From Chamaelirium japonicum (lineage: Eukaryota; Streptophyta; Magnoliopsida; Liliales; Melanthiaceae), in NCBI GenBank assembly GCA_947650365.1, contig OX393549.1, forward strand, positions 25,934,709 to 25,998,708: DNA of 64,000 nucleotides, given 5' to 3'. Below the pieces are notes generated by a model. It saw only the letters and a program-made list of their open reading frames with translations. It was not told the origin of the DNA and did not search any database. The translations under genes were made by a program, and so were the position numbers. Within the stretch, counting starts at the first letter, position 1; the number at the start of each line of letters is the position of its first letter. Positions 41,856 to 42,809 of this stretch are shown here, piece after piece.

Positions 41856-41998
41856 TGTTAATGTATAGAGATGGATCGGGTTCTATGTACAGTTGGGTCG
41901 GGTTGTAGATGTATTGATGTACATATATATTGGGCTTGTCCCTCAATGAAGGATTGATTTTTCCATTCTCTCCAAACCCTAGTCGTCATCTCCTAACA
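41856..41998 (+). repeat. 5' LTR of chimeric copia/TRIM element
   Basis: 143 bases, TGTTAATGTATAG..CTCCTAACA, partner 42667-42809. The primer site that follows is degraded (TATTAGCAGAGC instead of TGGTATCAGAGC). Confidence 0.88.
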
Positions 41999-42160
41999 TA
42001 TTAGCAGAGCTGGGTTCACCGTCTCCCTCTCCCGCTCCCGCTCCCGCTCCGGGTGCTCCCCACCGATCGTGCCTTGCCACGCATGCTACGCATGAAGGGG
42101 AGTGTTAACAGATAGTCCCACATCGGTGAGGGAGGCACTCATCACCCGCTCACTAATTTT

Positions 42161-42655
42161 TTCCTCCACCTCTCTGTTAGTGCTACGTGCCTACTCCGAT
42201 GCAGATTGGGCAGGAGATGTAGCCACTCGCCGTTCTACTACCGACTACTGTGTGTTCCTCGATAATTCCCTCATTTCATGGCGCAACAAGAAACAGGAGT
42301 CTACTGCTCGGTCCAGTACCGAAGCCGAATATAGGGCTATGGCTTCCACCACCGCAGAGATTGTCTGGCTTCTCCGCCTTCTACTCGACCTGGGAGTTGT
42401 GATATCCGGGCCCACGCCTCTCGTCTGTGACAACCGGAGTGCTATTTAGATTGCTAGCAACCCGGTCTTCCACGAGCGGACAAAATATATCGAGGTTGAC
42501 TGTCACTATATTCGCCAGGAGTTTCTCGACCACGCCATCTTCTTGCCCTTCATTCCATCATCGGAGCAGACTGCTGATTTTCTTACGAAGTCTCTTACGA
42601 TTGCTTGCTTCCGGTATTTTATTGGCAAACTCTTGGTACATAATCCACCGTGAGT
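42161..42655 (+). pseudogene. Copia RNase H fragment in chimeric element
   Basis: Encodes LRAYSDADWAGDVATRRST, DNSLISWRNKKQESTARSST, EAEYRAMASTTAEIVWLLRL and CDNRSAI, then TAG at 42447-42449 where F has a Gln codon. It continues through HERTKYIEVDC-like sequence to NPP*. Only RNase H is present, with no gag, integrase or RT catalytic core, so it has no autonomous capacity. Confidence 0.85.
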
Positions 42656-42666
42656 TTGAGCGGAAG

Positions 42667-42809
42667 TGTTAATGTATAGAGATGGGTCGGATTCTATGTA
42701 CAGTCGGGTCGGGTTGTACATGTATTGATGCACATATATATTGGGATTGTCCCTTAATGAAGGATTGATTTTTCCATTCTCTCCAAACCCTAGCTGTCAT
42801 CTCCTAACA
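42667..42809 (+). repeat. 3' LTR of chimeric copia/TRIM element
   Basis: 143 bases, partner of 41856-41998, followed by TCGAT. Confidence 0.88.

Follow-up and report, generated by a model that had tools for sequence, protein, structure and literature searches.

Can a miniature retrotransposon be joined to a coding one before either enters the chromosome, and does such a joint tell which element moves the other? This question is raised by an element at positions 41856–42809 (the focal element) of a 64,000-nt stretch of Chamaelirium japonicum DNA (hereafter the window; C1:25934709-25998708), in which copia long terminal repeats (LTRs) enclose parts of a terminal-repeat retrotransposon in miniature (TRIM) and the 3' end of a copia pol gene. 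All genome searches used the 1.52-Gb assembly from which the window is taken. We consider it very likely that the focal element is a copia/TRIM recombinant which arose in reverse transcription and was integrated once by copia integrase, and that the TRIM is replicated by this same copia group. The element is built as follows:

41851–41855, unstranded: 5' target-site duplication (TSD) TCGAT, read directly and repeated at 42810–42814
41856–41998, plus strand: 5' copia LTR, 143 nt, TGTTAATG...CTCCTAACA, 134/143 identical to the 3' LTR and sharing a TTT insertion with it
41999–42010, plus strand: primer binding site (PBS), a diverged form of TGGTATCAGAGC and the copia LTR/TRIM interior joint, compared with 79 exact joints of this type
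42011–42102, plus strand: TRIM interior with polypurine tract at 42094–42102, 86% identical over 42025–42094 (70 nt) to the TRIM interior of locus L002, with TRIM copies genome-wide
42103–42150, plus strand: first 48 nt of a TRIM LTR (full LTR 110–111 nt), 92% identical to TRIM LTR positions 1–48
42132–42150, plus strand: switch patch of near-identity between TRIM LTR and copia pol, the top match between TRIM LTR and copia interior at L043; same joint at three other loci
42151–42666, plus strand: 3' end of copia pol (RNase H region), its frame interrupted by a stop, and a polypurine tract at 42658–42666
42667–42809, plus strand: 3' copia LTR, 143 nt, aligned with the 5' LTR
42810–42814, unstranded: 3' TSD TCGAT

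Direct reading and alignment confirmed the mosaic that had been proposed from the letters of the window: copia LTRs around the primer-side interior of a TRIM, the start of a TRIM LTR and the 3' end of copia pol, all flanked by TCGAT. The left joint falls at the LTR|PBS boundary 41998|41999, within the region first proposed (near 41998-42010). The right joint had been placed at 42155-42165 but lies within 42132–42150, where TRIM GAGGCACCCATCACCCG and copia GAGGCACCATCACCCG are one base apart over ~18 nt. The TGGTATCAGAGC-type PBS would match the initiator-Met tRNA. Nine substitutions and no gaps separate the two copia LTRs (93.7% identity), and the TTT insertion that both carry is absent by alignment from the other 11 LTRs of the copia group, 6 of which were covered by a scripted test. 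From 42140 to 42809 the sequence is 82% identical to the copia of the window termed copia F and 89–90% identical to most other genome copies listed. The putative label of RNase H for the pol end rests on its position directly behind the RVT_2 match (Pfam) of copia F and on characteristic motifs; a Pfam search of both RNase H pieces (focal and copia F) gave no matches.

The original prediction placed recombination before integration because the target duplication encloses the whole mosaic. This proved correct: TCGAT lies outside all of the parts, and other mosaics described below have perfect TSDs and outer LTRs that are 99–100% identical. The chance of a 5-bp TSD alone is 1 in 1024. Additionally, no separate target duplication, such as a secondary insertion would carry, surrounds the TRIM part, which is truncated within its LTR at one end and stops at the PBS at the other. 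Two marks of a template-switch complex are present, a TSD outside the whole complex (TCGAT) and outer LTRs from one reverse transcription (134/143, with the shared TTT insertion). In place of an internal LTR and two complete cores there are a 48-nt LTR remnant and a 3' pol fragment. The focal element is a short, broken, older copy, and its worth lies in the family that it revealed.

The smaller partner has the features that define a TRIM: it is short and noncoding, with short LTRs, a PBS, a polypurine tract and a 5-bp TSD. Ten stand-alone copies were cut out and measure 318–324 bp; the LTR is 110–111 nt, and the longest ATG frame in the L032 TRIM is 42 aa. Perfect 5-bp TSDs flank 7 of the 10 copies, one of which lies in a TA repeat and is hence weak. 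Tandem arrays of the same TRIM, in which LTR and interior alternate, are also present in the genome; the array at L037 and L038 (C12:6494609-6495999) has a period of ~211 nt. An Rfam scan of window positions 41500–52000, which hold related TRIM copies, gave no match above the gathering threshold, and identity with the Cassandra TRIM was rejected for want of a 5S rRNA-like match in the range scanned.

Two relatives of the larger partner lie downstream in the window:

51892–57238, plus strand: copia F, a coding relative of the partner, with a 1469-aa reading frame at 52665–57074 and LTRs identical at 150/151 positions
59582–64000, plus strand: copia G, a more distant relative, extending past the window end

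Pfam matches on pieces of copia F run Retrotran_gag_2, zf-CCHC, rve and then RVT_2. The partner is a Ty1-copia element, with gag, an integrase upstream of the reverse transcriptase and a reverse transcriptase of copia type. Open frames run through copia F (1469 aa) and through L046 (1470 aa), L047 (1458 aa) and L043 (1538 aa), and copia F is 97.6–98.8% identical to the copia parts of composite L045. The 5-bp TSDs of the group were seen on composites and not on copia F itself. The focal 5' LTR is 75% identical to that of F, 80% to that of G and 93% to that of L003; by these identities, the source copia of the focal element is a sister subfamily of F and G. The claim that a copia of the F/G family packages the TRIM fits the 79 and 80 foreign joints and the mixed-ended insertions reported below, from which packaging would follow, but the copia in question belongs to the sister subfamily.

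The TRIM and the copia group share the PBS TGGTATCAGAGC and LTR ends TGTTAA...CTAACA. The polypurine tract GAGGGGGAG occurs in copia and in the L018 TRIM, and GAGGGGGGA in the L028 and L032 TRIMs. Another copia of the window (44007–49357) has the same PBS, but its polypurine tract and LTR tips are different. An autonomous/non-autonomous pair is recognized, in PMC11302176, by the same PBS, LTR termini and polypurine tract, all of which the copia group and the TRIM have in common.

Joints were then counted genome-wide as exact patterns, which miss diverged copies, the focal one included. The native joints numbered 535 for TRIM LTR/TRIM interior and 1632 for copia LTR/copia 5' region. Foreign joints at the PBS were found at 79 sites for copia LTR/TRIM interior and at 80 for TRIM LTR/copia 5' region, and reversed controls gave 0 in every case. 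The original prediction had asked for further copies with the focal junctions, and these exist, the TRIM LTR/pol joint at 3 other loci and the copia LTR/TRIM interior joint at the 79 sites. Among the 80 + 79 sites, the two foreign joints come within 12 kb of each other in 20 pairs. In 14 of these the joints share a strand and are 200–439 nt apart, the TRIM unit sitting immediately inside the 5' end of copia; 1 more pair keeps that order with 1189 nt between the joints, 4 share a strand but have the reverse order, and the joints of the last lie on opposite strands. Most foreign joints thus have no exact joint of the other kind nearby. Three such TRIM LTR/copia sites were fetched, and L052 and L053 do have a nearby copia LTR/TRIM joint while L054 has none.

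Perfect 5-bp TSDs flank 11 of the 17 mosaics examined (a count that excludes L083 and the inverted composite at 50304–50932), and they occur on copia-ended, TRIM-ended, mixed-ended and inverted kinds. The ends are as follows:

Focal element, copia-ended: TSD TCGAT
L044, copia-ended: TSD TGTAC, LTRs 129/130
L045, copia-ended: TSD GTTAC, LTRs 151/151
L046, copia-ended: TSD AGGCA, LTRs 130/130
L047, copia-ended: TSD CTCCT, LTRs 129/129
L043, TRIM-ended: TSD CTTCT, LTRs with 1 substitution and 1 gap (the gap a cutting artefact)
L050, TRIM-ended: TSD CCCAC, LTRs 111/111
L052, TRIM-ended: TSD GTCAA
L055, mixed-ended (one TRIM and one copia end): perfect TSD GTACC
L041, mixed-ended: perfect TSD CATAT
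L054:330-4600, mixed-ended, TRIM LTR left and copia LTR right: TSD GTGTC, with an extra AG before the left LTR
L040, mixed-ended: in a TA run, uninformative
L053:322-4289, inverted head-to-head, TRIM LTR left and inverted copia LTR right: TSD AACTA
L042:3660-8503: TGTTG at both ends, left end at the PBS without a 5' LTR

Several of these mosaics are young, with outer LTRs 99–100% identical. Both permutations occur, copia-ended with a TRIM inside and TRIM-ended with a full-length copia frame inside (L043, 1538 codons). One TRIM end and one copia end on the same insertion are physical evidence of a single integration that handled both.

Individual mosaics show further details. The extra AG of L054 corresponds to the final two bases of the polypurine tract, which would fit a plus strand begun 2 nt early, and integration of L053 appears to have used two U3 ends. 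The L042 composite may be an integrated unfinished cDNA; L065 likewise starts at the PBS, within what by eye resembles genic sequence. In the young composite L046, two TRIM LTRs abut directly (7760–7981; AACA|TGTT), like the junction of a two-LTR circle. At L083 (244–446) a TRIM LTR runs straight into 27 nt from the end of a copia LTR and then into copia 3' pol sequence in inverted orientation. The window itself holds an inverted composite:

50304–50932, unstranded: two minus-strand TRIM units, then a plus-strand copia LTR end, PBS, TRIM interior and LTR

Its plus-strand half starts in a copia LTR, of which the terminal 26 nt (50703–50728) precede the PBS, and its flanks, CCTCT and CTTCT, match at 4 of 5 positions.

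The joints have formed repeatedly. TRIM units of L042–L047 are 98–100% identical to each other and 98.1–99.5% identical to the stand-alone or arrayed TRIMs of L030, L032 and L037, whereas the copia LTRs of different subfamilies in L042–L047 are 79–83% identical. Near-identical TRIM units behind such diverged copia LTRs indicate repeated joining or exchange, not descent from one old composite. The exact pattern of the TRIM LTR/pol joint occurs at 4 genome sites (focal, L050, L049 and L055; control 0). The copia part of L050 is 99.5% identical to the unjoined copia of L043 and 88.2% to the focal element; that of L055 is 98.6% identical to unjoined L047 and 82.5% to the focal element. L050 and L055 are 88.7% identical to each other in this part, and the best match of L049 is L008 (91.9%). 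Because the copia parts of L050 and L055 match unjoined L043 and L047 far better than the focal element, the focal-type joint probably formed at least three times (focal, L050 and L055).

A different partner was sought on either side of the PBS. Genome-wide, 305 of 335 starts of the PBS-interior sequence are preceded by the CTAACA ending. Among the first 100 listed, 11 lack it (two listings compared by eye), and individual inspection was confined to these 11: upstream lies a TRIM LTR in 8, a copia LTR in 2 and in 1 no LTR that is known. On the other side, 615 of 1210 TRIM-LTR/PBS sites fit the TRIM-interior or copia patterns and 595 do not. We fetched 20 of the 595 in listing order, and no other coding partner follows the PBS directly in any of the 20. 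A TRIM LTR match follows in 18 (only 72% at L069), L074 has only a TRIM-interior fragment, and L085, without an annotated match, was judged by eye to be degraded TRIM interior. At L083 copia sequence appears farther along, past the TRIM LTR that comes after the interior.

The internal switch occurs at a short similarity. Between the L043 TRIM LTR and the 4601-nt L043 copia interior, no local match scores higher than the patch (score 27; runner-up 22), which is likewise the top TRIM-LTR match at L003. The TRIM-to-copia switch occupies the best match on offer, though this similarity is not above chance level. The microhomology suggested for the junctions is found as a near-identical patch of ~18 nt, but its score lies within the range of shuffles.

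Our best reading is that one copia group would supply reverse transcriptase and integrase to the TRIM, and that cDNAs would change template at the PBS common to both or at short stretches of homology. Copia and TRIM RNAs, or one already composite RNA, would share a particle; co-packaging of the two RNAs is inferred from the recombinants. Minus-strand DNA would run from the copia 3' LTR into the RNase H region, jump at the patch into the TRIM LTR and be extended across the TRIM interior as far as its PBS. The PBS is common to the two elements, so that plus-strand strong-stop DNA made up of copia LTR and PBS could anneal there, which would place a copia LTR at the 5' end. A 5' copia LTR beside a TRIM PBS would then be the outcome of ordinary plus-strand transfer, so that one internal switch suffices. 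Template switching between copia and TRIM RNAs, the route originally proposed, is to this extent supported, except that one internal switch is enough and the template may have been a pre-existing composite RNA. The product unit would be "interior + own 3' LTR", and its chaining at the PBS would give copia-ended, TRIM-ended, mixed-ended and tandem forms. With repeated plus-strand transfer, "interior + LTR" units would be strung together like those of the tandem TRIM arrays, which suggests that tandem TRIMs form by chaining units at the PBS. A wider proposal, to which we give nearly an even chance, is that TRIM and copia form a two-part replicating system, in which composites transpose in both permutations and interconvert via the shared PBS while the TRIM gains and loses coding cargo. 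If so, counting chimeras with mixed-ended TSDs would be a general way to name the helper of any TRIM.

Several observations weigh against this account. Shuffled TRIM LTRs gave a median score of 20, a 95% value of 25 and a maximum of 28, so that the patch score of 27 is within chance; at L005 the best TRIM-LTR match (25) lies elsewhere in the fetched locus, and L008 lacks the patch (best match 21). An old joint might also have been transferred to a new copia backbone by one more switch a little downstream, and the number of independent joints is to that degree uncertain. At 93.7%, the focal LTR pair is barely closer than the focal 5' LTR is to L003 (93.0%), so that the focal copy on its own gives a weak date. 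A TSD is lacking at L039 (copia LTRs 123/139) and at L049, no 3' end was found for L048, L042 lacks a 5' LTR and the left end of L054 is offset. L048 is a composite of a related copia subfamily (LTR 89.5% identical to focal), and its existence means that the focal template may have been either two RNAs or one composite RNA.

This last composite bears on the strongest alternative, which is plausible at somewhat under an even chance: an internal deletion of an existing composite, in which a TRIM unit lay between the copia 5' LTR and its own PBS, and the stretch from TRIM LTR to RNase H was lost by a jump within one RNA. Such an event would likewise occur during reverse transcription and is a variant of the best explanation. 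Composites with a TRIM unit inside copia do exist (L039, L046, L047 and L048, with 14 same-strand joint pairs 150–900 nt apart), L044 and L045 are such deletions at other points, with joint overlaps of 7 nt (one mismatch) and 4 nt, and L048 comes from a copia subfamily near the focal one. However, no intact-middle composite of the exact focal subfamily is among the fetched loci, and the same joint is present in L050 and L055, which begin with TRIM sequence and need no such parent.

That the TRIM is a deletion derivative of the copia family, and the mosaic ordinary internal variation, is very unlikely. This derivation had been raised with the original prediction. The same PBS, polypurine tract and similar LTR tips would suit it, and TRIMs with LTRs common to larger elements are described in Gao et al. 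2016 (PMC4717578). We rejected it, as similarity of both LTR and interior is at chance level: the best scores of the TRIM LTR against five copia LTRs were matched by 111 to 397 of 500 shuffles, and that of the TRIM interior against the copia 5' region by 332 of 500.

We give slightly less credence still to recombination after integration or nested insertion, with a TRIM inserted into or next to copia and later deletion or unequal exchange, even though such origins are said to explain the vast majority of complex elements identified (PMC1950507) and the lack of a TSD at L039 and L049 would fit them. The outer TSD and twin LTRs led us to reject it: a TSD lies outside the whole mosaic in 11 of 17 cases, outer LTRs are up to 100% identical, joints are repeatedly exact at the PBS, and no inner TSD surrounds the TRIM part. 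An assembly artefact is scarcely credible, hard as such repeats are to assemble, given 159 exact foreign joints, each at its own coordinates, against 0 in reversed controls, and perfect TSDs with different flanks in 11 of 17 mosaics. Elsewhere the window holds a 2135-nt direct repeat (17000–19134 and 23756–25890, 98.8% identical).

Template-switch complexes, tandem TRIMs and the inference of helpers are already known. Autonomous and non-autonomous LTR elements of soybean reportedly swap LTRs, going by the title of Du et al. 2010; the elements there are reportedly larger ones, with no TRIM. A genome-wide system of TRIM/helper composites with mixed-ended integrations is new as far as literature searches show; the searches, with most subscription papers beyond reach, returned no paper on TRIM/copia composites and no earlier description of TRIM/helper composites that recur, occur in both permutations and integrate with mixed ends. 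The coding mover of a given TRIM is mostly unknown in general, and mixed-ended recombinants can be counted in any assembled genome.

Gao et al. (PMC4717578) give related larger elements for 11 of 289 TRIM subfamilies, Kalendar et al. (PMC7215508) call the partners of Cassandra unknown, and a wheat study (PMC9744471) finds partner assignment difficult without experiments. The complexes of Triticeae, rice and maize of Sabot and Schulman 2007 (PMC1950507) resemble the focal element in outer TSDs, in matching outer LTRs and in being ascribed to switching between co-packaged RNAs. Their model has a heterodimer of similar elements, a switch in R and chimeric LTRs, whereas here elements with dissimilar LTRs are joined at the PBS and keep pure LTRs. 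Tandem TRIMs (Gao et al. 2016, PMC4717578; Cassandra, Kalendar et al. 2020, PMC7215508) are chains of alternating LTR and interior, as in the arrays of this TRIM, but here the chain includes a coding copia unit among its links. Mini-Tnt1 with endogenous Tnt1 (PMC2923131) is similar in that a small element is mobilised in trans, there experimentally, and chimeras are ascribed to RNAs packaged together; in contrast, both sides there belong to the same family and are engineered. Lastly, the SMART FRetro129 and its putative helper FRetro64 (PMC3281118) also combine a proposed copia helper, no LTR similarity by BLASTN and a similar PBS and polypurine tract. There the link is shared internal sequence (96%), whereas here it is recombinant insertions in both permutations and with mixed ends.
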